Assembly (NCBI RefSeq): GCF_002753895.1
Contig: NZ_NJER01000002.1
Location: 617,990-681,989 of the forward strand
DNA length: 64,000 bases
From: Halobacteriovorax sp. JY17
GTDB taxonomy: Bacteria; Bdellovibrionota; Bacteriovoracia; Bacteriovoracales; Bacteriovoracaceae
Direction: 5' to 3'
Each line of letters begins with the position of its first letter. The stretch's first letter is position 1. The notes below the pieces were generated by a model that was not told where the DNA came from, did no database searches, and saw nothing but the letters and a program-made list of their open reading frames with translations. Positions 765 to 32,794 of this stretch are shown in pieces. The translations under genes and the position numbers were made by a program.

Positions 765-1367
765 CTACTTAATTTCTTTATATGTTTTAATGAGCTTCGT
801 TTCTAGATCTAAAAAGTCTGTATAAACAGTAGAGTCTCCCTCACAGAAGAGAGTTTTATACTTCTCTCCACTAAGATCATGGGAGATCACACGACAAGTT
901 TTATTTTTAATTTTTGATTTTGTTACAGAAGTAATTTCAGTAAACTTGGAGCACCCACTTACTTCGTGAGGAATATTTTCTCCAGAGAATGAATTAACTC
1001 GAATAAAAGTATCATTCTTTAAACCTCTTCTAAGGGATTTTCCAAAGAACCCTTCACCTTTGAATTGTTGAGTATAGTCACCTTCTAAACTACTTGAGTA
1101 GGCCTTCGATGTTAAAGTTGCCGCGTAGAGAAGACCTATTTCATTTGGAGAATCTTTCTGTTTCTGGATTGCAGCTTGAACTACATCAATACATTCTTGT
1201 TCGTTACTACTATGAGCAATACTTACAGATTGGTTATTTCCAAATTGTATATTTGAAGCATTACTTAATAATCTATTGGCCGAAGGATGACTTTGTAGAA
1301 AATCAAATAGAGAGGCCTGTGATGTAATAGAAAAGAGGGTAACTGATAGTAGTAGAATGATTCTCAT
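765..1367 (-). CDS. Secreted protein of unknown function
   Basis: A 200-residue protein that begins with a clear signal peptide (MRIILLLSVTLFSITSQAS, cleavage near residue 19), so it is exported to the periplasm or beyond. The mature part is polar, with cysteines at C59, C138, C158 and C174 that could form disulfides. The start ATG (1365-1367) has a strong Shine-Dalgarno AGGAG at 1376-1380, directly next to a perfect hairpin (1381-1407). It lies downstream of the siderophore receptor on the same strand, so it could be read from that operon or from its own promoter. I recognise no family. Confidence 0.75.
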   Translation of the reverse strand: MRIILLLSVTLFSITSQASLFDFLQSHPSANRLLSNASNIQFGNNQSVSIAHSSNEQECIDVVQAAIQKQKDSPNEIGLLYAATLTSKAYSSSLEGDYTQQFKGEGFFGKSLRRGLKNDTFIRVNSFSGENIPHEVSGCSKFTEITSVTKSKIKNKTCRVISHDLSGEKYKTLFCEGDSTVYTDFLDLETKLIKTYKEIK

Positions 1368-1380
1368 TTAATAAACTCCT

Positions 1381-1407
1381 AGATTGTGTAGCGATTTTAC
1401 ACAATCT
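1381..1407 (-). promoter_or_regulatory. Perfect 10-bp hairpin abutting a ribosome-binding site
   Basis: Arms agattgtgta (1381-1390) and tacacaatct (1398-1407) are perfect reverse complements around a 7-base loop. On the minus strand the structure lies between the receptor stop codon (1475) and the Shine-Dalgarno of the next gene (1376-1380), touching the latter. No U-tract follows on the minus strand, so it is not a typical intrinsic terminator. It could be an mRNA-stabilising 3' end, an operator or a translational control element. Confidence 0.6.
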
Positions 1408-1474
1408 AAGGAGAGAATAGGTTATTTTAAAGAAATTACATAAGGTGTATAGATCTTAAACACATCCTAAGTAT

Positions 1475-3616
1475 TTAGAATCTATAGCTTGCTTTCATGC
1501 CATACATTCTTGGAAGTCCTGGTGAAGAGACTTCCTTATCAAAGGCAGAGTAGTAGTAAGCTTGACTCTCATAGACTTTATCAAAGAGATTATTAACATA
1601 GGCCGAAATGGTATAAGCTTCTTTTTCAAAAGAAACTCTTGCCCCAACTAGGCCGTAGCTTCCCATTCTTGTATGGTTAATATTGTCTCCAAATCTTTGG
1701 CCAATATACTTATAGCTTGTTCTAAAGTTTAAGTATCCATTTACGTTATTTAGAAAGTATGAGTATTGAGCAAAAGTACTTCCTGTCCAGTAAGGAATAT
1801 TTGCTAGGCGAGCACCTTTCTTATTGAGTACAGTACTTCCAGTTCCGGATACTGTTTCTTCTTTAAATTTAGAATTTGTATACCCAAGATTTGAGCCAAA
1901 AGTCAGATCTTGCGTGGCCTTAAGTTTGGCTTCAAGTTCTCCACCAAAAACATCGGTATCAATATTGGCATAGAAACTCTGATTTGTTGTTGTATCTTTT
2001 ACTCTCACTTGCTTGTCTTTAATATCATTAAAGAAGAGAGCTGAGTTTAGTGTAAGTCTTTGCTTAAAAAATGACATTTTTGATCCAATCTCATAAGAGA
2101 GAGAGGTTGAGTCTTCGTAAGCGGGTTGATCTTTAGATATTCCGTTGTAGTTATTAAAGTGATAGGAAGGATATCCACCTGATTGATAACCTCTTGCTAC
2201 ACTCGCGTAGAGGTTTTTTGTACTACTTACTTTTGCCGCTAGAGTTAACTTTGAGCTGAAGTTTGTATAGTCCTCTTCACTACTTTGTCTGTAGTCAGCA
2301 ATCGTCGTTGATTGATGAATTGATTTAAATTCTTTTCTGTCGTGGTTTACTCTTGTTCCAAATGACAGAGAGTAAATACTTGAAAGGTTTTTCGTTGCTT
2401 CTCCGAAGACAGAGAAAGTATCGGAAATAAGATTAATATTTTGTTTCTTAAAAACAAAGCCTCCGCTAAAGGTCCTGATATGACTTTGGAGTCTATAATT
2501 ATTTCTTGAAAGATTTATACCTGCTGTCCAAGAGAGATCGCTAGAGTCTTTATTTGTAAGTCTAAATTCAGTGTAATACTGTCTCTGGTGTTCTCTGATA
2601 GATCTAAATAGCTCGTTTGAGTTATTGATATATTGATTAGCAAGGGCCGTTCCTACTTGGCTTCTAAGGTAGTCATAAGTGATATAGTAATCAGCTTCAT
2701 CGTACTTTATATTAAAGTCGTAATAATTGAAGGCTCCGATAATGGTTAGAAGAACATCATCAAAATCTTTTTCTAGCTTTAGTGACGTTGTCACTAAATT
2801 AGTCTTATAAATCGGATCAATATTTTGATGAGACTTTGGATATCCCGGCTCATTTCTTGAGATGATAAGAGGATCAGAACCTTCTTTCTTTTGTAATCCA
2901 ACTTTAAAAGTAGATTTAAAAGTATTAGATGGCTTAAATTGAAGTGTATTTCCAAGAGAGTAAGTTTCACTATCTCCTAGGTCTTTATTTAGGAAAGTAT
3001 CGTGAATATATCCACCTTGTTCCTTATACTTTAATGAGAGTCTATTCTGTAATTTCTCAGAACCTAGTTTGAAATTAGTTGTACCAATAACAGACTTAGT
3101 GTCTAGATTTCCAGCTTCAAGAGTGATTTTACTTCCATCTTTATAATTAGGCTCTTTTGTATAAATATTGATTGCACCGGCCTGGGTATTCTTTCCAAAT
3201 AAATTTCCCTGAGGTCCACGAAGAACTTCGATACTTTGGATATCTATGAGGTCGTTGTCCATTGCATATCTAGGCATTGGGATTTCATCTAAGTTAAAGC
3301 CGACAGAAATTTCTTCTGGAAGGTTTAGATCTTGATTTCCTTGGCCTCTAATATATGGAGTAGAGTAACGGCCAGAATTTGATCCAATAAGTGTTACATT
3401 GGGAGTAGTGTCAGTGAGATCTCTGATTGTATTTATTCCCGCTTCTTCAATTTGGTACTCATCGTATGTTGTAATACTAATTGGAACTTCTTGAATATTC
3501 TCTTTTCTCTTTCTGGCTATAATGTATATCGCTTCATTTTCTTGGCCTTCGCTACTTTCTTGCGAGTAAGCGATGTCGTTAGCAAGAAGAGCGGTCATTA
3601 ATAATAGAAATTTCAT
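1475..3616 (-). CDS. TonB-dependent outer-membrane siderophore receptor (IutA-position)
   Basis: Predicted 713-residue TonB-dependent receptor that imports ferric siderophore across the outer membrane. A short signal peptide ends near residue 18. A candidate TonB box lies around residues 28-36 (EAIYIIARK). The plug domain follows, with the family motifs IEVLRGPQGNLFGKNTQAG (about residues 129-147) and GAINIYTKEP. The rest is beta-barrel sequence ending in a C-terminal aromatic (SYRF), the usual outer-membrane insertion signal. It is the last gene of the operon that starts at 10999, ten bases after the preceding stop, in the place iutA holds in aerobactin loci. The plug resembles the general iron-receptor family more than IutA specifically, so substrate identity rests on context. 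Confidence 0.92.
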   Translation of the reverse strand: MKFLLLMTALLANDIAYSQESSEGQENEAIYIIARKRKENIQEVPISITTYDEYQIEEAGINTIRDLTDTTPNVTLIGSNSGRYSTPYIRGQGNQDLNLPEEISVGFNLDEIPMPRYAMDNDLIDIQSIEVLRGPQGNLFGKNTQAGAINIYTKEPNYKDGSKITLEAGNLDTKSVIGTTNFKLGSEKLQNRLSLKYKEQGGYIHDTFLNKDLGDSETYSLGNTLQFKPSNTFKSTFKVGLQKKEGSDPLIISRNEPGYPKSHQNIDPIYKTNLVTTSLKLEKDFDDVLLTIIGAFNYYDFNIKYDEADYYITYDYLRSQVGTALANQYINNSNELFRSIREHQRQYYTEFRLTNKDSSDLSWTAGINLSRNNYRLQSHIRTFSGGFVFKKQNINLISDTFSVFGEATKNLSSIYSLSFGTRVNHDRKEFKSIHQSTTIADYRQSSEEDYTNFSSKLTLAAKVSSTKNLYASVARGYQSGGYPSYHFNNYNGISKDQPAYEDSTSLSYEIGSKMSFFKQRLTLNSALFFNDIKDKQVRVKDTTTNQSFYANIDTDVFGGELEAKLKATQDLTFGSNLGYTNSKFKEETVSGTGSTVLNKKGARLANIPYWTGSTFAQYSYFLNNVNGYLNFRTSYKYIGQRFGDNINHTRMGSYGLVGARVSFEKEAYTISAYVNNLFDKVYESQAYYYSAFDKEVSSPGLPRMYGMKASYRF

Positions 3617-19980: not shown

Positions 19981-20580
19981 TCATTGATGTAGAAATTCAA
20001 AAGTCCGAAGGACCTCTTCAAAGTATGGACCTTCGATTGCACCATTTAAAATACTGCTTCTACTCTTGGCCAATAGGTAGGCATCATTAATATTGTCTTT
20101 TATGAGGTAGCAATCAAAGTAGACTCGCTCGCTAACGTTTTCTGTTGCGGTACCTTCAATATGAATAATATCTATTCTTCCCTCTTTATAAGGGATAAAT
20201 TCTTCAAAGACTGAAGGGATATCGATGACTGTTTCTTCGGGATCAAAGATTAACTTTAGCTCTTCTAGTTTTGATACAATGATTTCGTCAAGTGTTTTAC
20301 TACTTAACGCCTTAGTTCCATCAAACCATTCAAAGTCAGCTCGCCAGTCATATCTTGTATCAGTTCTCTCAAAGACGGCCTGAGTAGATTCATCTTTAGA
20401 GTGAGCTTGAGTTGTATTGGTCCACCAGCTTGGTAGGAAGAAGAGGAAGTTCTTTAATTCAAATTCTTTCGCATTTTCGACGTAAGCTTGGTTTTCCTCT
20501 TTGATCGCTATCATGGAATAGATTGCATAGAGCAAAATACCACCAAAAATTAGCCATTCTATGAGTCTTGAAAATTCCAT
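19981..20580 (-). CDS. Membrane-anchored protein of unknown function
   Basis: A 199-residue protein with one N-terminal hydrophobic segment (about residues 5-24, IEWLIFGGILLYAIYSMIAI) and possibly a second short one (FLFFLPSWW, about 46-54). The rest is a soluble acidic domain with alternating strands and helices. It reads away from the glycine-rich protein gene across a 180-base divergent region. That region contains a TATAAT at 20716-20721 pointing to the plus-strand gene. No family recognised. Confidence 0.75.
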   Translation of the reverse strand: MEFSRLIEWLIFGGILLYAIYSMIAIKEENQAYVENAKEFELKNFLFFLPSWWTNTTQAHSKDESTQAVFERTDTRYDWRADFEWFDGTKALSSKTLDEIIVSKLEELKLIFDPEETVIDIPSVFEEFIPYKEGRIDIIHIEGTATENVSERVYFDCYLIKDNINDAYLLAKSRSSILNGAIEGPYFEEVLRTFEFLHQ

Positions 20581-20760
20581 ACGAAGAAAATACTGAAGGT
20601 TTCTTCCTCTGTAAACGTGATTTTAGTCTTATTTATCTCGTAATTTCAGACATTTATTGAGTTTAAAACTATTCCGCTAAAGTTTTAAATAAAGATTCCC
20701 GATAAACCAGTGAGATATAATAAATGCAGGTGTAGTGACCTGTAATTTGGAGAAGTAGAG

Positions 20761-22386
20761 ATGAATTACTCAAAATCAAAGACAACATGGAAGCACTATC
20801 TTATTGTAGCGGGCTTTTCTTTGACTCAATCATTAGTGGCCTCGGCAGATCAAGGTGTATTCAATGATTGCCAATATGCTGGCGAGAGTAAAGAGATGTG
20901 TTACAAAATGGTCATGGCTTCAGAATATGGTGGTGAAATTGACTGTGTTGAGTGTTTATTCTACGAAGCACCAGAGCAAAATAAGTTAGCTGAAACTCTA
21001 GGGGTTGTTGCTGGGCCATTAGCCTTTTTAGGAGCATCATACTTCGGAGCAAAGTATCAGTATAAAGGTCAGAAAGCTTGGGCCAATGCTTACGAGTCAG
21101 GGCATACAGCTTGTACGACAAGATTTAATTCATATTTAAATTATTCGACTGAAAGAGGGGCAACTCCTATTTCTCCTGGTGATGCGGAATCATTTGCTAG
21201 TTCTTGTGGAGCTGGCGGATCTCTTGGTATCGGTGGAGGCTACGGTGGTTACGGTGGTTACGCCGGTAACGGTTTTGGTGGATTCGGAAATTCATTTGGA
21301 GCAGCAGGCTATTCGCCTGGTTTCATGGGTGGAATGATGGGGCCTAACTTTGGTGGCGGAATCTCAGGTGGATTTGGTTATCCTGGAATGGGTGGCGGCA
21401 GTATGGGCTTTGGCGGAGGACTAGGTTTTGGCCTTGGTCTTGGTGCAATGAATGGTCTCTTCGGTGGCGGAAACGGCATGGGCGGAGGTCTAGGCGGTGG
21501 AATTAATATTGGAATCGGTGGCGGATTAGGAAGCGGAATGGGTGGCGGAATGTACCCTGGCGGATTCGGCATGGGTGGAAATCCATATGGTGGAATTTAC
21601 GGCGGAATGGGTGGTGGATTCGGTTATCCAGGAATGGGTGGCGGAATGTACGGTGCAGGAATGGGAATGCCAGGTTTAGGCGGTGGAATTAATATCGGCT
21701 TAGGCGGAGGTCTAGGTGGAGGTCCCGGTGGTTATATGGGCGCTGGTTACCCTGGAATGGGTGGTTACCCAGGAATGGGCGGTGGAATTAATATCGGTCT
21801 AGGTGGCGGTCTAGGTGGCGGAATGGGTTACCCAGGAATGGGTGGCGGAGTTAATTTCGGTGTTGGAAATCCATACACTAGTGGAATGTACAATGGTGGC
21901 CTTGGAGGCGGTGGTTTCACTGGCGGAATGGGTGGATATCCAGGAATGTACGGAAATGGAATGTATAATAATGGCATGGGTGGAATTTATGGACCGGGAA
22001 CTGTTCCTGGGTCTATGGGATTAAATCCATGGGGTAACGGTGGAGCTAATGGTTCTTACTGGAATAATTCAGGTGGTTGGAACGGTGGACTTAATAGCCA
22101 GTATCAACAACAACAGCAACAGCTGCAACAACAGTATCAGCAAAGGGCAGATGTTCAAGGACAGGTGCAAGCTGGTTATGCAAGAGCGCAAGGAAATCAG
22201 ATAACAGGACAGGCAGCAAGCTCTGCTCTTTATCAGAATTACCAAAATGCAGCTCAGGATCTCTACTCTAATTCATACTATGGTGGAGGAAATACAGTTA
22301 ATCCATATGCAAATGGATCAATGTATTCTGCTGGAAACTTAGGTCTAAACTTTGGTGTTAGTGCCGGAGGATATGTAGGCTTCTAA
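20761..22386 (+). CDS. Glycine-rich repetitive secreted/surface protein
   Basis: A 541-residue protein. Residues 1-29 look like a signal peptide (TWKHYLIVAGFSLTQSLVASA). Residues 30-150 form a cysteine-containing domain with one hydrophobic stretch (LGVVAGPLAFLGASYFGA, about 80-97). From about residue 155 to 440 the chain is extremely rich in Gly, Met and Pro, with recurring blocks GGGINIGLGGGLGGG (three close copies, one GGGVNFGVG variant) and GYPGMGGG. A glutamine-rich stretch (about 444-460) follows, then a Tyr/Asn-rich end. The ATG has TTGGAG upstream. The leader (20727-20742) can form a short caggt/acctg hairpin. Composition suggests a flexible or self-assembling surface material; the function is unknown. 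Confidence 0.85.
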   Translation: MNYSKSKTTWKHYLIVAGFSLTQSLVASADQGVFNDCQYAGESKEMCYKMVMASEYGGEIDCVECLFYEAPEQNKLAETLGVVAGPLAFLGASYFGAKYQYKGQKAWANAYESGHTACTTRFNSYLNYSTERGATPISPGDAESFASSCGAGGSLGIGGGYGGYGGYAGNGFGGFGNSFGAAGYSPGFMGGMMGPNFGGGISGGFGYPGMGGGSMGFGGGLGFGLGLGAMNGLFGGGNGMGGGLGGGINIGIGGGLGSGMGGGMYPGGFGMGGNPYGGIYGGMGGGFGYPGMGGGMYGAGMGMPGLGGGINIGLGGGLGGGPGGYMGAGYPGMGGYPGMGGGINIGLGGGLGGGMGYPGMGGGVNFGVGNPYTSGMYNGGLGGGGFTGGMGGYPGMYGNGMYNNGMGGIYGPGTVPGSMGLNPWGNGGANGSYWNNSGGWNGGLNSQYQQQQQQLQQQYQQRADVQGQVQAGYARAQGNQITGQAASSALYQNYQNAAQDLYSNSYYGGGNTVNPYANGSMYSAGNLGLNFGVSAGGYVGF

Positions 22387-22416
22387 ATTAAGTCCAAATA
22401 AATTTATAAATATATG

Positions 22417-22441
22417 TGCCTCCCTAGTGGAGGCATTTATT
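22417..22441 (+). terminator. Intrinsic terminator after the Gly-rich protein gene
   Basis: tgcctcc (22417-22423) pairs perfectly with ggaggca (22429-22435) around loop ctagt, followed by tttattta. It ends the transcript of the glycine-rich protein 31 bases after its stop codon, and separates it from the four-gene operon that starts at 22476. Confidence 0.85.
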
Positions 22442-22475
22442 TATCTCTAGCGAGATGGATATTATTGGAGAAGAG

Positions 22476-23219
22476 TTGAAAGTAGTACTTGTTACAAGTC
22501 AACTTAACTACATGCCTAAGAATTACTCAAAGACCATTGAGGGGATTCTTGCGTCTTCTGATGGGAGAATTACTAGTCTCATTGAAATTGAAAATCTTGA
22601 TTATAGTTATATTAAAAGTGGCTTAGGTCTTATTTTCTATGGAGCAAGAAATTTTGGTTCACAGCTTTTAAAAAACCTTATTAGAGCGAGGTTCTCTTCT
22701 AAAAAATCTCTCTGTGATAAATATGAAGTTGAACATAGAATGTTTAAAAGTATTAATAATAAAGAAGCTGTCTCTTATTTGAATTCAGAAAAATTTGATT
22801 TACTCATCAATCTTCGGACTAGATGTATTTATAAACGTAAGGCCCTCGAATCAACAAGGCTTGGGTGTTTAAATATTCACCATGGACTTCTTCCTAAGTA
22901 CAGAGGAACTATGTGTGATCTAAATGCTCTTAGTGCAGGCCGAAGTGCAGGATTCTCCATTCATATGATGGATGAGAAAATTGATAACGGTGACATTATA
23001 AGAGTTGTTGAAGTTTCATCAAGTGAAAGAGATTACTTTAAGTACTTAGAGCAAACTAGAGATTTTGAAGTAGATGCGATTAAAGAGTTATTGGATTATA
23101 TTTCAGAACATAATTCTCTTCCAAAAGGCTTAGTTAATAAAAGTGAAGATAGTATCTATACAAAAACTCCCGATATAAGTGCTGTAAGAGATTATATAAG
23201 AAAAGGAATGATTTTATGA
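22476..23219 (+). CDS. Formyltransferase-domain protein (methionyl-tRNA formyltransferase fold)
   Basis: A protein of about 247 residues with the N-terminal catalytic fold of 10-formyltetrahydrofolate-dependent formyltransferases. The active-site block LNIHHGLLPKYRG (about residues 130-142) keeps the Asn and His of the family, and DNGDII (about 170-175) supplies the catalytic Asp. The C-terminal tRNA-binding domain of Fmt is absent, as in small-molecule formyltransferases. I chose the TTG at 22476 because GGAG lies five bases upstream and translation then starts directly with the first strand (KVVLVTS); the ATG at 22455 has no ribosome-binding site. Its stop overlaps the next start (ATGA), so it is translationally coupled to the hydrolase-ligase fusion. 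The likely substrate is an amine made or activated in this operon. Confidence 0.85.
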   Translation: MKVVLVTSQLNYMPKNYSKTIEGILASSDGRITSLIEIENLDYSYIKSGLGLIFYGARNFGSQLLKNLIRARFSSKKSLCDKYEVEHRMFKSINNKEAVSYLNSEKFDLLINLRTRCIYKRKALESTRLGCLNIHHGLLPKYRGTMCDLNALSAGRSAGFSIHMMDEKIDNGDIIRVVEVSSSERDYFKYLEQTRDFEVDAIKELLDYISEHNSLPKGLVNKSEDSIYTKTPDISAVRDYIRKGMIL

Positions 23220-25561
23220 AGTCGTACGTTGTCTATCATGGTTCCCCTGGAACGGCAGAAGATTTTGAATTTCTAAAAGAGAAACTTGGCGATGTAACAG
23301 TATTAAAAAGAGGTGAGAAAAAAGACTCTGATATATATATTGGCTACTCTTTTGGAAGCTATTTTGCACTCAGAGATTTTGCAAATAATCCAAAAGCAAA
23401 GAAGTTGATTCTAGTCGCTCCATATCTATATTCAGAAGCTCTTGGGTTTGGAAAGAAGTTACTTATTGGAAACTCTTTTCTCGCAAATTTAATTATTCCA
23501 AAGATGTCTGAAAAAATTATCGAGAGCTTACTCGTAAAGTCCTCTTCTCCAAAGAGTGTTCCCGATGAATTTCGCTCTATTGCAAGTAAGTACAGAAATG
23601 TTGAAGTATTGAGAGAAGCGGCCCTTGAAAAAGATATTACTTCCAGACAATTAAAAGAGTTAGCAGACAAAGTCAAAGGAAGAGAAATTCATATTATTTG
23701 GGGAGATAGTGATGAGTCCCTAACTTCTGATCATAGAAGTAAGATAAAGAGTCTCTTAAAGGCAAATGAAATCGTACTAGAAAAGACTGGTCATGCAATT
23801 CCTTGGACTGATCGTGAAGAGTTAGTGAAGAACTTGGAATGCTTTTCAAAAGATTCTACTGAGCAGAAAACTGGTTACTATGACGGAGAAGATAGTCGCA
23901 ATAATGTGGCAACATTTCTAAAAGAACATGTAAGAGAAAATCCAGATAAAAGTGTTCTTGCTTGGGTTGATTTATCAAAGATTGGAAGTTGGAGTGGAAA
24001 CTTAAATGAACCTCTACCTCATGAAACAATTAGCGTAAAAGACTTAGATCATCTTGTTTCAAAAATATCAAACGGTTTAATAGATTTAGGAATAGAAAAG
24101 GGTGATAGAGTTATTATCTTTATTCCAATGTCTCTACAGCTTTACGCTGCAATGTTTGCACTTCAAAAGATTGGAGGAATTGCTGTATTTCTTGATAGCT
24201 GGGCCAGAAGAGATCAAATGGGAGTCAGTGCTGAGACTGCTGATCCTAAGGCCATTATTTCCCTTGAAAAAGCGTTCCAATATTTAAGTGATGTAAGAGA
24301 AATTGGAAATATTCCTATTAAGGTCTCGGTAGGACCTACTGAAGGAGAGTATACTTCATCGCTAGAGAAGCTAATGAGTTTTGAAGCGAATGAAGAGGTT
24401 ACTCCTGTTGAAAAAGAGCATACAGCTCTTATTACATTTACGACAGGAAGTTCTGGTAAGCCTAAGGGAGCAGATAGATCACATCGCTTTCTTTCGGCAC
24501 AACACTACGCTTTAAATCGTCATATTCCTTATGTGGATTCTGATGTTGATCTTCCTGTATTTCCTATTTTCTCTTTAAATAATTTGGCCGCAGGGGTAAC
24601 TACTGTCATTCCTGCAATTGATGTAGGGGCGCCATCTGAAAAAGATCCATTGGTTTTGATTGCTCAATTTCTAACTATGAAAGTTACATGTACAACTTTG
24701 TCTCCTTCATTATTGAATGCAGTTAGTGCTTTCTGTTTGAAGAATAATTTAAAACTTAATGGATTAAAGAGAGTTGTAACAGGTGGAGCGCCTGTATCGC
24801 GAGATGATGTAAAGAGAATTAAAGAAGCAGCTCCTAATGCTGAGATTCTCGTCCTCTACGGCTCTACAGAGGTTGAGCCTATGGCCCATATCGAAGCAAA
24901 AGATATGCTCGCACAAAAAGGGAGTAGCGATCCTGAGATTGTCGAACCCGGTGTGAATGTAGGAAAGTTTGATACAGGCTTAGAAGTTAAGTATATCAAA
25001 ATTAAAAATGAAAACCTTTCTATTTCTAAGAATGAGGATTGGGCCGACTTAGAAGTTTCAAAAGGAAGTCCTGGTGAAATCATAGTTTCAGGGGAACATG
25101 TTTGTCGAAATTACTTCAATAATGAAGAAGCTTTTAAGAAATCTAAGATTGTTGATGATAAAGGTCGTGTCTGGCACAGAACAGGAGACCTTGGATTTGA
25201 AGACGAAAAAGGTGATCTCTGGTTAGTTGGACGTGTCCATAATGCAATTAATAGGGGTGGTGAGTATTGCTTTCCTGTGAGAGCAGAAATCATTATGAAG
25301 AAAATTTCCTTGATTAAGCATGCTGCCTATCTTGGAGTTGAAGACTCTAAGTTGGGAGAGAAACCTATAGCAGTATTTTCTGTAAAAGATGGGGCGAGTG
25401 AGGCTGAGGCCATAAGTGAAGTCTCTAGAATGCTTAAAAAGAATAAAATTACATTTGATGATGTCATTGTTGTTGATCATATTCCGATGGATCCGCGACA
25501 TCACTCCAAGGTGGAGTATCACGTTCTAAGGGCAACTCTTAAGGAAGCGGGAAAAATTTAG
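23216..25561 (+). CDS. Fusion: serine alpha/beta-hydrolase + adenylate-forming (acyl-CoA-ligase-like) enzyme
   Basis: A 781-residue two-domain enzyme. Residues 1-215 are a compact alpha/beta-hydrolase with nucleophile elbow GYSFG (Ser45), an acid in WGDSDES (about 162-167) and TGHAIPW (His193). Residues 240-781 are an ANL-superfamily adenylating domain. They contain the P-loop-like TTGSSGKPKG (409-418), YGSTEVEP (about 541-548), RTGDLGFEDEKG and GRVHNAINRGGEY, with a C-terminal subdomain ending near the catalytic-Lys region. The ligase half resembles OleC-type beta-lactone synthetases (YGSTE..P..IE pattern). However, the hydrolase has a serine nucleophile, whereas OleB uses Asp, so an OleBC identity is unlikely. 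It should activate a carboxylic acid with ATP, with the hydrolase acting as thioesterase, esterase or proofreading unit. The start overlaps the previous gene by 4 bases. Confidence 0.88.
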   Translation: MKSYVVYHGSPGTAEDFEFLKEKLGDVTVLKRGEKKDSDIYIGYSFGSYFALRDFANNPKAKKLILVAPYLYSEALGFGKKLLIGNSFLANLIIPKMSEKIIESLLVKSSSPKSVPDEFRSIASKYRNVEVLREAALEKDITSRQLKELADKVKGREIHIIWGDSDESLTSDHRSKIKSLLKANEIVLEKTGHAIPWTDREELVKNLECFSKDSTEQKTGYYDGEDSRNNVATFLKEHVRENPDKSVLAWVDLSKIGSWSGNLNEPLPHETISVKDLDHLVSKISNGLIDLGIEKGDRVIIFIPMSLQLYAAMFALQKIGGIAVFLDSWARRDQMGVSAETADPKAIISLEKAFQYLSDVREIGNIPIKVSVGPTEGEYTSSLEKLMSFEANEEVTPVEKEHTALITFTTGSSGKPKGADRSHRFLSAQHYALNRHIPYVDSDVDLPVFPIFSLNNLAAGVTTVIPAIDVGAPSEKDPLVLIAQFLTMKVTCTTLSPSLLNAVSAFCLKNNLKLNGLKRVVTGGAPVSRDDVKRIKEAAPNAEILVLYGSTEVEPMAHIEAKDMLAQKGSSDPEIVEPGVNVGKFDTGLEVKYIKIKNENLSISKNEDWADLEVSKGSPGEIIVSGEHVCRNYFNNEEAFKKSKIVDDKGRVWHRTGDLGFEDEKGDLWLVGRVHNAINRGGEYCFPVRAEIIMKKISLIKHAAYLGVEDSKLGEKPIAVFSVKDGASEAEAISEVSRMLKKNKITFDDVIVVDHIPMDPRHHSKVEYHVLRATLKEAGKI

Positions 25562-26475
25562 TGAAAAGGTTTAACTCAAATTATTCTGACAGAGAATATC
25601 TAAAAGATAGGTTTAAATGGGTGAGATTCTTTATTGAAAGATTTGATCCTATTAGTCATGTCTTGATGATATCGCTCTTTATTGCTGGTCATATTGTTTT
25701 AGTGAAAAATGATCTTTCAGGTAACTTCGTTTTAATCTTTCTTGGTACAACTATTTTCTTTTTTAAGCTTAGATGTTTTGATGAAGTTAAAGACCTAGAT
25801 CTTGATATGAAAATAAATCCAACAAGGCCACTGCCACGAGGACTTCTCTCCGTCTTTGATATGAAAGATGCAATTATACTGTGTTTGATCTTTGAAAATG
25901 CCATCTTTTATTCCATTGGATTGAATGCTGGAGTTGCTATGAGTATAGCGTCAGTATATTCCCTTATAATGTATAAAGAATTCTTTCTAGGGGATTGGTT
26001 CAGAGATAAGCTGACAAGTTATGCAACAGCTCATACGCTCGTTACTATTCTTCTAAGCTTGAGTGTCTTTAGCGCTCTCGTTAATAAACCTCTCTACTTA
26101 CTAGATAAGGAGTTGTATTTCTTTTCTATAATTAGTTGGCTTCTCTTTAATATATTTGAACTTGGAAGAAAGACTTTCTTACAGAGTGAAGAAAGGGATC
26201 AAGTTGAATCATACTCAAAAGTTTGGGGAAAGGGTGGAGCTGTTATTCTTGTCCTAGTACACGCTTGTATTGCTGAAGTGATTCTCGCTTTAGGTGTTGG
26301 GCTCACTTCCTTTTTTGCAAAGGTCTATTTTACGAGCTCTTTTGCCATCTTTACTTTAATAGGAGTGTTCTTTCTATTTAAAAAGACTGGAAAGAGTGGG
26401 GCTTTATTTAGAGGCTACTCTTCATTTTATATTATTCTTATTTATTCTGGTATTATCATTGAGAAATTACTCTAG
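25561..26475 (+). CDS. UbiA-family membrane prenyltransferase
   Basis: A 304-residue integral membrane protein with about eight or nine hydrophobic segments. The first Asp-rich motif, FDEVKDLDLDMKINPTRPLP (about residues 73-92), has the Dx3D spacing and the downstream Asn/Arg-Pro of the UbiA superfamily. The second conserved loop, FELGRKTF...SYSKVWG (about residues 199-222), matches the other catalytic loop. The family transfers an isoprenoid chain from a prenyl diphosphate to an aromatic, sugar or other acceptor in the membrane. The GTG start at 25561 shares its first base with the upstream TAG stop, showing tight coupling. The acceptor is unknown; quinone genes are not nearby. Confidence 0.88.
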   Translation: MKRFNSNYSDREYLKDRFKWVRFFIERFDPISHVLMISLFIAGHIVLVKNDLSGNFVLIFLGTTIFFFKLRCFDEVKDLDLDMKINPTRPLPRGLLSVFDMKDAIILCLIFENAIFYSIGLNAGVAMSIASVYSLIMYKEFFLGDWFRDKLTSYATAHTLVTILLSLSVFSALVNKPLYLLDKELYFFSIISWLLFNIFELGRKTFLQSEERDQVESYSKVWGKGGAVILVLVHACIAEVILALGVGLTSFFAKVYFTSSFAIFTLIGVFFLFKKTGKSGALFRGYSSFYIILIYSGIIIEKLL

Positions 26476-26483
26476 GAAATATT

Positions 26484-29159
26484 ATGCTTTTAATTAATAA
26501 AAAGACGACAAAGAATTTCGCTAAGAAACAGGCCGGAGGGAAGGGGTATAATCTCTACTTACTGGCAAGAAAGGGAATAAATATACCTAGTTTCTCAGTT
26601 ATACCGTCTTATCTCTTTGAGGAATTTGTAAAAAGAAATGCCTTAGGAGATAAGATAACAAATGCCCTAAGTAATCTTTCTTTTAAAGAAGCTGCCGCTG
26701 AAATTGAAAAAGTTATTCTAAGTGGAAACTTTATAGGTCCTGAAGAAGAGGTTATCTATACGTTGATTAAATCATTTAAAAGTTCTCACTTCTCTGTGAG
26801 ATCTAGTGCTGGTGATGAAGATGGTGGAGAACATTCTTACGCTGGGCAATTATCTTCTTATCTCTATGTCTCATCATTGGAGAAATGCTTGGAGTCGGTC
26901 AAGAAGTGCTGGGCATCAGCTTTTTCAGAGAGATGCTTAGTCTATAGAAAAGAAAACTCAATTGAGCTAGAGAAGATACTTGTTTCTGTTGTTATTCAGG
27001 AAATGATTGATCCGGATGCTAGTGGGGTTGTCTTTACCTGTAACCCAGTGACAAATAACATAGATGAGTTGATGATTAATTCCGTTTACGGAGTTGGTGA
27101 AGGACTCGTTTCAGGATTACTTGAAGGGGATACTTACCTTATAAGTAAGGTGGATCAGTCTCTAGTGAGTAAGGAGATTGTAGAAAAAGAAAAGGCCTTG
27201 AAAGGGGATTTTGAGAATGAAAGAATAGTTGAAGTTGAAGTAAGTGAAGATAAGAGAAATATAGATTCTTTAAGTATTGAAGAGCTTAACCAGTTATCAA
27301 AAATCTCTATTCAGATTGAAGAACTCTACCAATGTGCACAAGATATTGAATGGGCCTTAAAGGATGGAGTTTTCTATATTCTTCAAACAAGGCCTGTGAC
27401 AACACTAACTGCTACAACTAAGGGGATATTAAATCTCTGGGATAATTCAAATATTGTTGAAAGCTATGGTGGAATAACAAAACCTCTCACTTATGGTTTT
27501 GCTCGCTACGTTTATAATCAGGTTTATATTCAGTTCTGTGAAGTGCTAATGGTTCCGCAGAATCATATTAAAGAAATGAACTTCTTTTTAAAGAATATGC
27601 TTGGACTCTTCTATGGGAGAGTTTATTACAATCTCTTCAATTGGTATAAATTAACAAGTATTCTTCCTGGCTATAAGTTTAATCGTCAATTTATGGAAAC
27701 TATGATGGGAACTAGTGAATCACTTGGAGATGAGATTGCTGAGAGAATAAAGCCCCCTAAGTTTCATGATAGCTTCGGTTCAAGAATTCGAAAGTTTCTA
27801 ACAGGGTTTAAGTTCTTTTACTTTCATTTAAATATTCAAAGTATTGTAGATAAGTTTCTTACCGACTTTCACCGTATTTACGATGTTTATCGAAGTAAAG
27901 ATTATTACTCAATGACTGCAGATCAGATTTACGATGAATATATGGGGCTTGAGAAAGATATTCTTTGGAAGTGGCATGCACCAATTATTAATGATTTTCT
28001 CTGTATGGTTCACTTTGGAGTTTATAAGAAATTAACTGAAAAGTGGCTCGATCATTTAGGGCAAAACTTTCATAATGATCTCTTGGCCGGAAATGGGAAT
28101 CTTGAGTCTGCAGAACCAACAAAGCAGTTAATTAGACTCTCTGGCATAGTTGTAAAAACAGAAGGGTTGAGAGAATTTATCTTTAAAAATGAAAATGACT
28201 ACTTACTTGAAGCTCTTAATCAATCAGAGTATCAAGAATTTTATGAACTCGTTTCTACTTATTTAGATAAGTATGGGTTTAGATGTATGAGTGAAATGAA
28301 GTTAGAGCAAAAAGACATGCACTTAGAGCCTAAGCTCTTCTTTGTCTTTCTAAAGAATATCATTAACTCAGGACAAGTTGACTTAGAAGAATTTGAAAAG
28401 AGAGAGCACGAGATTCGTGCTAATGCTGAAAAGCTTTTAAAAGATAATATAAGTGGTATTAAGGGTATTATCTATTCTTGGTCTCTAAAACATGCAAGAA
28501 AAGCTGTTATGAATAGAGAGAATACGAGATTTTGTAGAACACGTATCTATGGTGTTGTTCGCTCTATGTTCTATGCTATGGGAGAGAATTTCGCAAAGAA
28601 CGGAATTATTGATAGAGATGAAGATATTTTCTTTCTAGATTTAGAGGAGTTGAAAGGAGCTTTTGAAGGAACTAATTCAGTTCAAAACTTTAAGAGAATC
28701 ATCGAAACTAGAAAACTTGAGTACGCTAGTTATGAAGAAAGTGAGCCTGAGAGCCGGTTTATGACTAGAGGTCCGGTCTATTGGAAGAATAATCACTTTC
28801 CTGCACCAGTGGTTCTAGATCAAAATATTGAATTAAAAGAAAATGAAATGCTTGGTCTGGGTTGTTGTCCTGGAATAGTTGAGGGAGTAGTGAAGGTGAT
28901 TATATCTCCCGACGATAATCTAGAACTAAATGGAGAAATTCTTGTTACCCATAGAACTGATCCAGGTTGGATTCCTCTTTATCCATCTGCAAGTGCTCTC
29001 TTAGTTGAAAGAGGTGGATTACTTTCTCATTCAGCAATTGTGGCCAGAGAAATGGGGCTTCCAACGATTGTCTCTATTAAAGGACTCACAAAGAGACTTG
29101 AAACAGGAATGAGGATACGAATTAATGGAGAATCTGGATTAATTGAAATTTTAGAATAA
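26484..29159 (+). CDS. PEP-synthase/rifampin-phosphotransferase-like phosphohistidine enzyme
   Basis: An 891-residue protein. Residues 1-310 are the PPDK-type ATP-binding domain (GKGYNLYLL at 19-27, SVRSSAGDEDG about 108-118, QEMIDPDASGVVFTCNP about 172-188, DIEWALKDGVFYILQTRP about 288-305). Residues about 315-780 form a large central domain starting NLWDNSNIVESYGGITKPLT, the style found in rifampin phosphotransferases. The C-terminal swivelling domain carries the phosphorylated His in GGLLSHSAIVARE (His849). This order, with the His domain last and no PEP-binding TIM barrel, differs from true PEP synthase and matches enzymes that split ATP into AMP, Pi and a phosphorylated small molecule. 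The substrate is probably the product of the three upstream genes. The gene begins 8 bases after the UbiA gene. Confidence 0.88.
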   Translation: MLLINKKTTKNFAKKQAGGKGYNLYLLARKGINIPSFSVIPSYLFEEFVKRNALGDKITNALSNLSFKEAAAEIEKVILSGNFIGPEEEVIYTLIKSFKSSHFSVRSSAGDEDGGEHSYAGQLSSYLYVSSLEKCLESVKKCWASAFSERCLVYRKENSIELEKILVSVVIQEMIDPDASGVVFTCNPVTNNIDELMINSVYGVGEGLVSGLLEGDTYLISKVDQSLVSKEIVEKEKALKGDFENERIVEVEVSEDKRNIDSLSIEELNQLSKISIQIEELYQCAQDIEWALKDGVFYILQTRPVTTLTATTKGILNLWDNSNIVESYGGITKPLTYGFARYVYNQVYIQFCEVLMVPQNHIKEMNFFLKNMLGLFYGRVYYNLFNWYKLTSILPGYKFNRQFMETMMGTSESLGDEIAERIKPPKFHDSFGSRIRKFLTGFKFFYFHLNIQSIVDKFLTDFHRIYDVYRSKDYYSMTADQIYDEYMGLEKDILWKWHAPIINDFLCMVHFGVYKKLTEKWLDHLGQNFHNDLLAGNGNLESAEPTKQLIRLSGIVVKTEGLREFIFKNENDYLLEALNQSEYQEFYELVSTYLDKYGFRCMSEMKLEQKDMHLEPKLFFVFLKNIINSGQVDLEEFEKREHEIRANAEKLLKDNISGIKGIIYSWSLKHARKAVMNRENTRFCRTRIYGVVRSMFYAMGENFAKNGIIDRDEDIFFLDLEELKGAFEGTNSVQNFKRIIETRKLEYASYEESEPESRFMTRGPVYWKNNHFPAPVVLDQNIELKENEMLGLGCCPGIVEGVVKVIISPDDNLELNGEILVTHRTDPGWIPLYPSASALLVERGGLLSHSAIVAREMGLPTIVSIKGLTKRLETGMRIRINGESGLIEILE

Positions 29160-29160
29160 A

Positions 29161-29186
29161 AAAGGCTCCGATTGGAGCCTTTAGTT
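29161..29186. terminator. Strong bidirectional terminator
   Basis: aaaggctcc (29161-29169), loop gatt, and ggagccttt (29174-29182) form a perfect 9-bp stem followed by agtttt. It directly follows the stop of the phosphohistidine enzyme gene and faces the minus-strand gene ending at 29204, so it closes both transcripts. Confidence 0.9.
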
Positions 29187-29203
29187 TTAAATTTTGAATT
29201 ATT

Positions 29204-29623
29204 CTATTTATTGTGGATAAGCGTTTTAATTTGATGACGGAAGATAACTTCTATCTTGTCTTGATCAATTGTCTTATCAACAACACCTGGACCAAATTTT
29301 ACGTGGTCAATAATATCGCCTTGAGCAAATTGTCCACGAATAGAGTAAGGTTGAGACTTTGCAGTAGCAGAGTTTATTGCCTCCATCCAAAGATCAGCAA
29401 CAGAAGTTGTTGTTTTAGATGTCTTTCTAGTAGTTTTCTTTCTCGTTGCCGCCTTCATTTTTACTGCTGAAGGATCTTTGTAAGCATGTGTATTCTTACA
29501 CGTTCTACATTCAACTCTATGAATTGTCTGTGCGTCTTTCATCGCAACGATTGTATGTGCTAAAGTAAGCTTACACTTAGAGCAATAGGAAAGAACTTCT
29601 TTTCCTACGTTTAAATCAGACAT
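29204..29623 (-). CDS. Zinc-ribbon protein with basic linker and SH3-like tail
   Basis: A 139-residue protein with three parts. A zinc ribbon (CSKCKL at about 14-19 and CRTCKN at about 39-44) is followed by a Lys/Arg/Thr-rich linker (about 56-73). The C-terminal stretch GDIIDHVKFGPGVVDKTI...IEVIF (about 104-129) resembles the short SH3-like tails found in UvrD-type helicases and CarD-like proteins. This layout suggests a nucleic-acid or RNA-polymerase partner, possibly regulatory; that is inference. The start ATG (29621-29623) is divergent from uvrC, with GGTATC upstream rather than a strong ribosome-binding site. Confidence 0.78.
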   Translation of the reverse strand: MSDLNVGKEVLSYCSKCKLTLAHTIVAMKDAQTIHRVECRTCKNTHAYKDPSAVKMKAATRKKTTRKTSKTTTSVADLWMEAINSATAKSQPYSIRGQFAQGDIIDHVKFGPGVVDKTIDQDKIEVIFRHQIKTLIHNK

Positions 29624-29648
29624 TCTGATACCTTTGTTTTGGATTTGT

Positions 29649-29670
29649 TATAATGAATTGTTAGTATAAT
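29649..29670 (+). promoter_or_regulatory. Two candidate -10 boxes in front of uvrC
   Basis: Perfect TATAAT hexamers occur at 29649-29654 and 29665-29670 in the divergent region between the zinc-ribbon gene and uvrC. No convincing -35 box at the proper distance was seen for either, so at least one is probably a real but weak or activator-dependent promoter. Confidence 0.4.
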
Positions 29671-29718
29671 AGGATATAAAGATCTTTGAACAAAGTAAAG
29701 ACGGAACGCAATGCAAAT

Positions 29719-31581
29719 ATGCACAATAATCTACTAGAAAAAGCTAAAACACTACCTAATAAAGCCGGTTGCTATCTAATGAAGAGAATTAGAGCGGGCG
29801 AAGAGACTGTTTTATATGTAGGTAAAGCAAAAAACTTGAGAAATAGAGTCTCAAGCTATTTCAATAACTCATCAAAGTCTCCCAAAACGGAGATATTAGT
29901 CTCTCATATAAATGATTTTGATTTCATTATGACTGATTCAGATGCAGAAGCATTTGTTCTAGAAAATAACTTAATTAAGAAATTTTCTCCAAAATATAAT
30001 ATTCGTTTAAAAGACGATAAATCTTACCCCTACGTTTGTGTGAACTCAAATGAAGAGTTTCCAAGAATTATGTATGAGAGAAGACCGAAGAAACAGAAAA
30101 ACGTAGAAGTCTTTGGTCCCTTTGTCGTAGGTAGTAATATTTCTGAGGTTATTCGAATTCTCACAAAGTCATTTAATCTTAGAGACTGTACTCTTAAAGA
30201 CTTTAATTCAAGAAAGGAGCCTTGCTTACTCTATCAAATGAAGCAATGTTCAGCACCTTGTGTGAACTATATTTCTAATGAAGAATATAAGAAAGACCTA
30301 GATCTTGCCCTTAGTTTTTTTAGAGGAGCAGGAACAAAAGGATTGAAGGAATTAGAAAGACGAATGTTTCAATTTGCTGAAGGTGAACATTTCGAAAGGG
30401 CCGCAATTCTTAGGGATCATATTTCTGTTTTAAATGAATTTTTAAACTTCTCAAAACAAAATAATGCCGAAGTCTCTCATACGGTTAGAAACGTAGATAT
30501 TCTTGCTTATCATGTCGGAGATATAGAAGTAGATATTTCTCTCTATATGATGAGAGAGGGAGTACTTCTTGGTCATAAGAGTTTTCACTTTCCTTCCATA
30601 GACTGTAGTGATGATTTTGACGATGAAGTCGCTCAATACATCTTTCAATACTACACCACAACTTTTGATAAGCTTCCTGATCGAGTGATTACAAGCTTTC
30701 CTAAGAGCTTAAATGAAACTCTACATATTGCATTTAAACAAGTTCATGAACTTGATATTAAATGTTCAGCTCCGGGGAAGAAATTTGAGTCTTTAATGAA
30801 GCTAACTAAAGACCATGCCTTTGAACACCAAAGAGTAAGAATTTTAAATGAAGAAAGTACCTATGTCGGTCTTAATAAACTTAAAGAACTCTTAGGATTA
30901 AAAGAAAGACCCGTTACTCTTGAGTGTTATGACGTAGCTATCTTTCAAGGAAAGTCTCCCACTGCCTCTCAAATTGTTTTCAATGATGGGCGAGCAGATA
31001 AGAAGTCTTATAGACATTATCATCTAGAAGAAAGACCTGAAGGGAATAATGACTTTGCGATGATGAGTGAAGTTATTAATAGAAGAGTAAAAAAAGGCTC
31101 ACTTCCTGATGTCTTTATTGTCGATGGTGGAATAGGACAGGTCAATATTTTCTTAGAGGCCCTCAAAGATCATGATATCTCTATACCTGTTGTTGGAATT
31201 GCAAAATCTAAAGTAGATAAGAAATCTAATTTCAAATCAAAAGAAGTTGTGAGAAGTGAAGAGCGCTTAATTATTCCAGGAAGATCAAACCCGTACTTGC
31301 TGGCAAAGTGTAAATCTTTATTTCGAATTATTGTTCAAATGAGAGATGAGGCCCACAGGTTCTCTAGACGTCTTCATCATAAAGAAGAAAGAAAGAAGCT
31401 GATTACAAGTTGGGTAGATCATGTGGAAGGAGTAGGTCCTGTCGCTAAGAAAAAGATTCTATCTAATTTGGATTTATCTATAAAAGAATTGAAATTAATG
31501 AGTGAAGTAGAAATTCAAGAATACTTTGTTGTTTCAAAGAAAATTGCAAAGGCCATCGTAAAAACGCTGGCCCTGTATTAA
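29719..31581 (+). CDS. uvrC: Excinuclease ABC subunit C
   Basis: Nucleotide-excision-repair endonuclease that makes the 3' and 5' incisions with UvrA/UvrB. The GIY-YIG nuclease domain begins at LPNKAGCYLMK, with VLYVGKAKNLRNRVSSYF just after. The UvrB-interacting UVR motif is FAEGEHFERAAILRDHI (about residues 216-232). The C-terminal RNase-H-like nuclease is marked by ECYDVAIFQGKSPTASQIVF, and VDGGIGQ and the helix-hairpin-helix VEGVGPVAKKKIL follow. Length about 620 matches the family. The start is uncertain: ATG at 29719 fits the family N-terminus, and an in-frame TTG at 29686 has AGGA eleven bases upstream but would give almost no leader from the -10 box at 29665. Confidence 0.96.
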   Translation: MHNNLLEKAKTLPNKAGCYLMKRIRAGEETVLYVGKAKNLRNRVSSYFNNSSKSPKTEILVSHINDFDFIMTDSDAEAFVLENNLIKKFSPKYNIRLKDDKSYPYVCVNSNEEFPRIMYERRPKKQKNVEVFGPFVVGSNISEVIRILTKSFNLRDCTLKDFNSRKEPCLLYQMKQCSAPCVNYISNEEYKKDLDLALSFFRGAGTKGLKELERRMFQFAEGEHFERAAILRDHISVLNEFLNFSKQNNAEVSHTVRNVDILAYHVGDIEVDISLYMMREGVLLGHKSFHFPSIDCSDDFDDEVAQYIFQYYTTTFDKLPDRVITSFPKSLNETLHIAFKQVHELDIKCSAPGKKFESLMKLTKDHAFEHQRVRILNEESTYVGLNKLKELLGLKERPVTLECYDVAIFQGKSPTASQIVFNDGRADKKSYRHYHLEERPEGNNDFAMMSEVINRRVKKGSLPDVFIVDGGIGQVNIFLEALKDHDISIPVVGIAKSKVDKKSNFKSKEVVRSEERLIIPGRSNPYLLAKCKSLFRIIVQMRDEAHRFSRRLHHKEERKKLITSWVDHVEGVGPVAKKKILSNLDLSIKELKLMSEVEIQEYFVVSKKIAKAIVKTLALY

Positions 31582-31587
31582 TGGATG

Positions 31588-31800
31588 CTAATTTATAATA
31601 TGAATCATCTTCTTGTTGCCTTGCCCGCACTCTGGACATCTCGCCGTTTCTTGCACGATTAGATTTTTAAAATCTGATAAATGAGTTTGAACTAATTTTG
31701 CATTACATATATTGCAGTTATCCATGTGTTTCTTTACTTGATCTATATCACCATAATACTCTTCAAATTTTTCAAAGCGGAAGTCTAGTTCTTGTGACAT
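31588..31800 (-). CDS. Small zinc-ribbon protein
   Basis: A 70-residue protein. It contains Cys pairs CNIC (about residues 29-32) and CPEC (about 54-57), enough to bind one zinc ion. The N-terminal third is acidic and aromatic (DFRFEKFEEYYGDID). The ATG at 31798-31800 has AGGAG upstream (31804-31810 region, minus strand). It converges tail-to-tail with uvrC with six bases between the stops. Function unknown; small ribbons of this kind often bind nucleic acid or partner proteins. Confidence 0.7.
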   Translation of the reverse strand: MSQELDFRFEKFEEYYGDIDQVKKHMDNCNICNAKLVQTHLSDFKNLIVQETARCPECGQGNKKMIHIIN

Positions 31801-31936
31801 TTAGTCATCTCCTTGCAGGTATTAAATGTACTAATATATTTTTCGGGATATTTTGGACTTGGCTTAATTTGTGATATGTTTATTTCAATTTAGGGACCAA
31901 TTTACCTAGTAAGCCCTTAAAATTAGATGAGATTAA

Positions 31937-32794
31937 TTGAGCGAAATGAGTAAATACCAAGAAATTAGAAGTAAAATCAGCAAGATAGATAATGGAGAGG
32001 GCATTGCAAAGTTCTACTCAGGAGCTATTTTTGATCAAACGAGCTGGTATACATCTAGATTTGAAGAGCCTGAAGTCTCTAGCAAAGTCTCTCAAAAGGT
32101 CGAATCGTCTCCTCGTGCTATAGAGAGACCTAGTGCAGAAGCATCACCAATGAAGAAGGAAGTGTTAGATTCTTTGGCCAAGAAAGTTGAAGAGAGTGGC
32201 GCTGTTCAATCAAAGTTTGGGAATATTATTAAGGATGTTCGAACCTCTCTTTCTGGAAGTCAGCTTAAATTAACTCAAGATGTGAATACATATAAAGAAA
32301 TGATTGAAAGAACTTATACAGATTTTAAATTTGATGATTTTAAAGAGGTCACAACTTTAATTGTAGGAGAGAGAACTCTCTCTGAAATTAGTTTAGAAGA
32401 TAAGCACTTTAAAACTAATCATGATACTTCTGAGCTCCTAGGAAAGATGATAATTCCAATGAAGTTAGTGGAGGGAGAGTTTGTTCGAACTTCTCTTGTT
32501 GGAAAAGATGAGGGCGAAATTTTTCAAAACCTTCTCTGCGAAATTTCGCTTTTTAAACCACAAGTGGTTATCTCTTTGGGAGCAGTTTCTACAAACTTTC
32601 TGTACGGAAGAAAAGAGAAGCTATCTAAGATCCATGGAAGCGAAATTGAAAGAGCGATTGAAAGTGATGGAAGTGATGTTAAATTTACACTCTTTCCAAT
32701 TTTTCATCCTGATTTATTAGAAATTAATCCTTCAATGAAGAGAACAGCATGGATGGATCTTCAAAAAGTCATGAAATACTTAGGTAAATTATAA
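31937..32794 (+). CDS. Uracil-DNA-glycosylase-superfamily-like protein, probably degenerate
   Basis: A 285-residue protein. Residues 1-135 are low-complexity and charged, with no recognised domain. Residues about 135-285 resemble the UDG fold: LIVGERTLSE in place of the usual GEAPG motif, PQVVISLGAVSTNFLYG (about 214-230), HGSEIER, and FPIFHPDLL (about 254-262), the motif-B-like His-Pro, followed by the terminal helix WMDLQKVMKYL. The four Fe-S cysteines of family-4 enzymes and the motif-A catalytic residues are missing, so uracil excision is doubtful. The start is a TTG at 31937 or an in-frame ATG at 31946; neither has a strong ribosome-binding site. Confidence 0.78.
   Translation: MSEMSKYQEIRSKISKIDNGEGIAKFYSGAIFDQTSWYTSRFEEPEVSSKVSQKVESSPRAIERPSAEASPMKKEVLDSLAKKVEESGAVQSKFGNIIKDVRTSLSGSQLKLTQDVNTYKEMIERTYTDFKFDDFKEVTTLIVGERTLSEISLEDKHFKTNHDTSELLGKMIIPMKLVEGEFVRTSLVGKDEGEIFQNLLCEISLFKPQVVISLGAVSTNFLYGRKEKLSKIHGSEIERAIESDGSDVKFTLFPIFHPDLLEINPSMKRTAWMDLQKVMKYLGKL

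Follow-up and report, generated by a model that had tools for sequence, protein, structure and literature searches.

A conserved operon of formyltransferase, adenylase, UbiA-fold and dikinase genes in Halobacteriovorax and its possible place in a lipid-biosynthesis system

The DNA studied here, called the window, is a stretch of 64,000 nucleotides from Halobacteriovorax sp. JY17 (assembly GCF_002753895.1, contig NZ_NJER01000002.1, forward-strand positions 617,990 to 681,989). Within it we investigated an operon of four intact open reading frames (ORFs), all on the plus strand, which encode a formyltransferase (FMT), a hydrolase-adenylase fusion, a UbiA-like protein, and a dikinase (table 1). 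An earlier reading made from the sequence alone had described these genes as tightly coupled and enclosed by terminators. The ORF coordinates agreed with this description, giving a 4-base overlap, a 1-base overlap and then an 8-base gap, and terminator-like hairpins were found at both ends, in a region (20000-32000) that held 15 such sites against 7.3 expected from shuffled sequence. The scan listed no plus-strand promoter-like site in the interval separating the left hairpin from the formyltransferase gene. For the formyltransferase, the TTG start at 22476 fits better than ATG 22455, because the proteins of two congeners (L031 and L032) share its beginning, MKVVLVTSQ, and its length of 247 amino acids (aa).

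Table 1. Genes and hairpins of the operon, in window coordinates
Feature	Position	Strand	Basis and remarks
Formyltransferase (FMT; Formyl_trans_N)	22476..23219	+	ORF call, Pfam; 247 aa from TTG (254 aa if ATG 22455)
Alpha/beta-hydrolase (Ser-Asp-His) fused to ANL adenylating enzyme	23216..25561	+	781 aa; ORF call, Pfam, NCBIfam
UbiA-fold membrane transferase	25561..26475	+	304 aa, GTG start; PF01040 in relatives, structure
ATP-grasp + phosphohistidine-domain dikinase, RPH/PEP-synthase type	26484..29159	+	891 aa; Pfam, NCBIfam
Terminator-like hairpin 5' of operon	22416..22436	+	Hairpin scan
Terminator-like hairpin 3' of operon	29161..29182	scored on both strands	Hairpin scan

The conservation of the operon was examined in 129 genomes of the window's order, where 40 loci were fetched around UbiA matches in 40 genomes chosen from the 88 with any UbiA-family match, and more widely in a named genome collection, from which the best 80 of 93 relatives were taken. 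Removing 11 loci without a called UbiA ORF and 24 duplicates from these 120 left 85 non-redundant loci. We found that UbiA matches above 130 bits occurred in 37 of the 129 genomes, and that formyltransferase matches above 200 bits occurred in an identical set of 37. The lowest-scoring operon copy of the formyltransferase reached 210.5 bits, and the next match only 94.5. In 42 of the 85 loci the ORF calls included all four genes, and order and strand were the same in every one of these. Thus, the proposal that the four genes form one unit, and the co-occurrence that was to accompany it, were borne out. Four-gene loci were also present in metagenome-assembled records titled as Deltaproteobacteria (L098), Gammaproteobacteria (L112), Akkermansiaceae (L135), Planctomycetota (L151), and Riflebacteria (L149). 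Phylum-wide, the formyltransferase was found in 61 of 368 genomes at E 1e-30. The p values of this study, for co-occurrence as well as for the exclusion reported below, ignore kinship.

Catalytic motifs had been described as intact in all four products, and alignments of the window proteins with relatives above a score threshold, weaker relatives being left out, showed the catalytic residues of the formyltransferase, hydrolase, adenylase, and dikinase to be invariant. The formyltransferase scored 57.7 bits against Formyl_trans_N (PF00551; cut-off 26.1), and its triad N140, H142, D177 (ATG numbering) was invariant in 49 of 49 sequences. It could not be named as Fmt (40.1 bits, NCBIfam cut-off 201.5), PurN (39.9, cut-off 150.1), ArnA (44.2, cut-off 777), or the dTDP-sugar type (51.1, cut-off 238). 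The hydrolase part remained under the cut-off of Abhydrolase_1 (18.7 bits vs 25.8), and its triad S45, D166, H193 was invariant in all 27 aligned sequences. The adenylase part matched AMP-binding (PF00501) with 152.8 bits (cut-off 29.9), and all 52 aligned sequences retained its K195, K543, and D436 (domain numbering). Its nearest NCBIfam models lay in the PRK09274/OleC neighbourhood, with 372.9 bits (cut-off 478) and 225.2 bits. In one relative (L041, 6935-9419) the fusion is split between overlapping ORFs (431 and 413 aa), which reflects either a frameshift or faulty assembly.

The dikinase contained PPDK_N (254.2 bits) and PEP-utilizers (77.8 bits), both above the Pfam cut-offs, and H849, the catalytic His, and R106 were invariant in 49 of 49 sequences. 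Three named functions were rejected on NCBIfam scores: phosphoenolpyruvate (PEP) synthase (TIGR01418, 295.2 bits vs 739.75), rifamycin phosphotransferase (RPH; NF041857, 335.5 vs 999), and the prodigiosin ligase PigC (NF052631, 346.8 vs 1300). The protein passed NF004881 (PRK06241.2-2), a model named phosphoenolpyruvate synthase, with 1021.8 bits against a cut-off of 883. Pfam at E <=0.1 listed PPDK_N, PEP-utilizers, and two weak unrelated matches, and no C-terminal, pyruvate-binding barrel of the PEP-utilisers, so that the domain content predicted from the sequence does not support the name of that model. The sequence-only reading would have yielded if the four proteins were orthologues of enzymes in a described pathway. 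They fell below the cut-offs of OleC, TIGR01418, RPH, PigC, and the named formyltransferases, and the pass of the dikinase at NF004881 is the point on the other side.

The third protein can be assigned firmly to the UbiA fold from its structure model (pLDDT 90.6). The model aligned to 4od5 with Z 19.0 (root-mean-square deviation, rmsd, 3.9 over 260 residues) and to 6m31 with Z 18.0 (rmsd 4.4, 271 residues), and its best Foldseek matches were archaeal digeranylgeranylglyceryl phosphate (DGGGP) synthase and UbiA homologues; it also matched the membrane phosphoribosyltransferase 8j8j (Z 15.9, rmsd 3.6, 250 aligned). By sequence, the protein scored 30.1 bits against PF01040 (gathering cut-off 34.2), which 16 of 25 relatives matched at E <=0.01, and its best PDB match was the archaeal DGGGP synthase, at 29.4 bits. 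Among 57 aligned family members, D74, E75, K77, D78, and D82 of the first Asp motif were invariant and the motif R89-P-L-x-R-G was retained. No invariant or near-invariant Asp that could form the second motif (DxxxD) was found in these 57 sequences beyond D82. In an alignment with a paralogue of the UbiA family from the same genome (L165, taken as MenA-like), the region opposite the second motif reads RKTFLQSEERD; R203, K204, and E211 are invariant there, and E210 and E211 could act as stand-ins for the Asp residues. Because no invariant Asp follows residue 82, we withheld the label of prenyltransferase, an identity that the family alignment makes doubtful. The prenylated product proposed earlier becomes doubtful with it, even though the first Asp motif is kept. 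A UbiA-fold protein with an altered second motif could have an activity new to this intensively studied superfamily.

We found that the formyltransferase is one of two alternatives. Counted by tblastn at E 1e-8, the 85 loci comprised 52 with FMT, 17 with a GNAT acyltransferase, 16 with neither, and none with both. The 48 loci flanked by more than 8 kb on each side gave 36, 10, 2, and 0, respectively, and called ORFs in the full set of 85 gave 49, 16, 20, and 0, the ORF caller being greedy and missing, for example, the formyltransferase of L171. The exclusion had p values of 4e-9 and 1e-8. This alternation fits a single N-acylation step, and it offers a ready-made comparison between relatives. 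In three genomes of genus g4 (L057, L062, and L067), AMP2-UbiA2-GNAT occupies the place of FMT-AMP-UbiA; the lipid genes described below are kept, and the dikinase shares ~70-77% identity with the enzyme of formyltransferase-type relatives, the L057 copy being incomplete. UbiA2 of L062 had no match to PF01040, and a GNAT-type UbiA2 from Balneolaceae scored slightly below the cut-off (33.4 bits).

The operon has a recurrent partner, a block of genes for a DAGK-type lipid kinase, an SDR (NAD_binding_4), a 683-aa reductase protein, and a DUF3419 (BtaA-type) protein. Outside the window genus, the block adjoins the operon divergently in most Bacteriovoracaceae loci that were fetched; the two are co-directional in L107, L109, L121, and L122. 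Among the 31 loci carrying both the reductase and the type-I UbiA gene, the strands were opposite in 26 and the same in 5. In one genome with a single contig (G132), the operon and the DUF3419 gene are accompanied by the reductase gene, ~5 kb beyond the dikinase. Across the order, the reductase protein was detected in 66 and DUF3419 in 72 of 129 genomes, and both were present in all 37 operon genomes; the lipid kinase and SDR were looked for in the fetched loci. The genome of the window itself holds the block intact on another contig (G000:C1, locus L161, 7772-13009), where the DUF3419 domain reaches 109.6 bits against a cut-off of 28.2. The sequence-only reading had taken the operon to be the system. 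It is indeed a real unit, but only part of the set, as the lipid kinase, SDR, acyl-acyl carrier protein (acyl-ACP) reductase, and DUF3419 genes lay outside that account.

By the fold of its model, the C-terminal half of the 683-aa protein is an acyl-ACP reductase: it aligned to 6jzq with Z 31.3 (rmsd 3.3, 330 aligned). The top structural row for the protein was carmabin TAD 9e4s (Z 32.2, rmsd 4.0, 349 aligned). Cysteines C562 and C611 are invariant. The N-terminal half had no Pfam match, and residues 1-300 were modelled only within the whole protein; free-standing frames of ~313-336 aa matching only residues 1-320 occur in G056, G039, G037, G038, G027, and G001. Neither the DUF3419 protein nor a 508-aa neighbour had a sequence match in the PDB. 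Over the 85 loci, an HMG-CoA-reductase-like gene was found in 13 and the acyl-ACP reductase in 40, with both in none and neither in 32 (tblastn, with the HMG-CoA reductase part alone). That the former stands in for the latter is suggestive only. One locus (L145, 4686-7697) encodes a 1004-aa AMP-binding and HMG-CoA-reductase fusion with a sub-threshold carrier-protein match between the two parts, and HMG-CoA reductase matches also occur in L134, L136, L140, and L141.

Genes of the MMPL, LolA-like, and FtsX/MacB types lie close to some loci. These neighbours fit the export of a lipid, and the product is probably exported. Ten recurring neighbours were scanned, giving subtilase, 2-hydroxyacid dehydrogenase, asparagine synthase, MMPL, FtsX, ribonucleotide reductase, histidine kinase, an ABC ATPase, and two proteins without a match; some further neighbour proteins also had no Pfam match. 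The asparagine-synthase-like gene is found repeatedly on the downstream side of the operon in Bacteriovoracaceae loci (L083, 14377-16047, and 10 others), and a thiopurine-methyltransferase-like gene often has the lipid block or the operon close by (L161, 13062-13718, and 12 loci). Immediately upstream of the operon in the window (20761-22386) is the gene of a 541-aa glycine-rich low-complexity protein, whose position is kept in the two congeners named above. Upstream of the operon in L098, a PAP2 and dual-specificity-phosphatase protein (1-1005) adjoins an AMP-binding, carrier-protein, and PlsC-acyltransferase protein (1001-3589).

Considering these distributions, it is fairly likely that the eight genes serve one dedicated lipid pathway, and the balance tips slightly toward the operon being one half of an eight-gene lipid-biosynthesis system whose other half lies on another contig. 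Several observations weigh against this interpretation. In the window genus, none of the 5 genomes searched had the reductase gene linked to the operon, and the evidence of linkage therefore comes from other genera. The reductase occurs in 29 and DUF3419 in 35 genomes without the type-I UbiA/FMT set; therefore, the block also works with other partners. Even among the 48 long-flank loci, the counts were 40 for DUF3419, 32 for the reductase, and 29 for the lipid kinase, and the lipid kinase, SDR, and reductase are frequently absent from loci of distant phyla. As to the alternation, two of the long-flank loci (L147 and L148) have neither FMT nor GNAT, and three GNAT matches were weak (61 to 112 bits).

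If the eight genes do act together, family chemistry suggests substrates, an order of steps, and a product. The 680-aa reductase protein would turn an acyl thioester into a fatty aldehyde, which the SDR would take on. The DUF3419 protein would then transfer the 3-amino-3-carboxypropyl group of S-adenosylmethionine (SAM) to a lipid hydroxyl, yielding an ether-linked homoserine with free amine and carboxylate. The formyltransferase might block the amine, a part that the GNAT acyltransferase would play in the sister systems, and the adenylase would activate the carboxylate; such blocking of the amine ahead of activation is chemically sensible. Within the membrane, the UbiA-fold enzyme could couple this activated intermediate to another lipid or to an alcohol, and the dikinase (ATP to AMP + phosphate) and lipid kinase would phosphorylate intermediates. 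The functions assigned to the reductase, DUF3419, formyltransferase, GNAT, adenylase, UbiA, dikinase, and lipid kinase in this scheme are those of their families. The order as written is tentative.

Equally speculative is the fullest form of the proposal, a new class of bacterial membrane lipid: an ether lipid derived from fatty aldehyde or alcohol and bearing an N-formyl homoserine (N-acyl in the sister systems), the carboxylate of which would undergo adenylation before a non-prenyl UbiA-fold enzyme attached it to a second lipid, with the head cassette (FMT-AMP-UbiA or GNAT-AMP-UbiA) swapped and the lipid core genes constant. In more general terms, the product of the operon is probably a membrane lipid not yet described. 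Predatory bacteria and records from several uncultured phyla keep the locus in order, its active sites being invariant, and this implies such an envelope lipid. From the four genes alone, a formylated, prenylated, phosphorylated lipid or secondary metabolite had been suggested; the partner genes back the lipid, and the prenyl part is what became doubtful. Among the papers listed by full-text searching (titles and abstract openings, with preprints and most subscription papers outside its scope), none describes this gene set. Thus, the protein families are known, and the pathway itself appears undescribed within the literature searched. The phosphonosphingolipid of Bacteriovorax stolpii (PMC6148460) was also considered.

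There are other potential explanations of the operon. The four genes might make a prenylated small secondary metabolite (a quinone, an aromatic, or an amine), with the lipid block as a separate, frequent neighbour. The nearest folds to the UbiA-like protein, archaeal lipid synthase and UbiA, the distant likeness of the PPDK-type protein to prodigiosin ligases (347 bits, under the cut-off), and the lack of linkage in the window genus all agree with this. We nevertheless consider it unlikely, given that the reductase and DUF3419 accompany the operon in all 37 genomes, that four loci carry co-directional arrays with the block, and that the second Asp motif is not invariant. Somewhat less probable still is the modification of an envelope polysaccharide by a formyl- or acyl-amino sugar or amino acid; the UbiA-fold enzyme would then use a polyprenyl phosphate, like the phosphoribosyltransferase of mycobacteria. 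In its favour, the closest characterised formyltransferases include sugar N-formyltransferases (51.1 bits vs a cut-off of 238), and 8j8j is among the fold matches. However, the recurring neighbours scanned, which were a subset, included no glycosyltransferase or nucleotide-sugar family; the only such matches were generic SDR/epimerase ones, given by the SDR itself.

A variant olefin/beta-lactone (Ole) pathway, with an OleB-OleC-like fusion and an OleD-like reductase, is very improbable. Its attraction is the position of the adenylase in the PRK09274/OleC neighbourhood and its fusion to a hydrolase, an arrangement known from OleBC of other bacteria. Nevertheless, the OleC cut-offs were missed widely (225.2 bits vs 850 and 219.7 vs 900), and the SDR of L042 scored 54 and 49 bits against OleD-type cut-offs of 580. 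The nucleophile of OleB is Asp, in contrast to the Ser found in all 27 hydrolases, and no thiolase family was seen among the scanned block proteins of L042, OleA not having been searched genome-wide. The Ole pathway was rejected on the NCBIfam cut-offs and the Ser nucleophile. Finally, a chance cluster of central-metabolism genes (PEP synthase, Fmt, and acyl-CoA ligase), to which the pass of the dikinase at NF004881 might point, is scarcely credible and already disfavoured by the conservation of the operon, as all 42 loci, some in records of other phyla, are collinear, the dikinase lacks a listed pyruvate-binding C-terminal domain, and the same genome has, at another place, a second and weaker formyltransferase match with a 313-aa open frame.

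The proposed lipid system can be compared with several known ones. The Ole system (OleABCD, with the OleBC fusion) resembles it in the hydrolase-adenylase fusion and in the nearest models of the adenylase; beside the differences in nucleophile and in OleC and OleD scores, and the lack of a thiolase match in the scanned block, the operon adds a formyltransferase, a UbiA-fold enzyme, and a dikinase. In prodigiosin and tambjamine biosynthesis, PigE is similar to the reductase half (157 bits) and PigC to the dikinase (347 bits), but the cut-offs are 850 and 1300, and the PigE match covers only residues 343-674 of 683. Rifamycin phosphotransferase and PEP synthase (PpsA) share the ATP-grasp and phosphohistidine domains and the invariant catalytic His, whereas the dikinase scores far from both (335.5 vs 999 and 295.2 vs 739.75) and is tied to a biosynthetic operon. 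The archaeal DGGGP synthase is the top fold match of the UbiA-fold protein and has in common with it the first Asp motif and the RP..+G motif; the difference lies after D82, where no Asp is invariant and R203-K204 and E211 are. The betaine-lipid pathway of BtaA and the N-methyltransferase BtaB resembles the system in the DUF3419 protein of the partner block, which belongs to the family of BtaA, the enzyme that transfers the aminocarboxypropyl group of SAM to a lipid hydroxyl. In the system proposed here, in contrast, formylation or acylation would modify the amine, and there are additional enzymes of the adenylase, UbiA-fold, and dikinase types.

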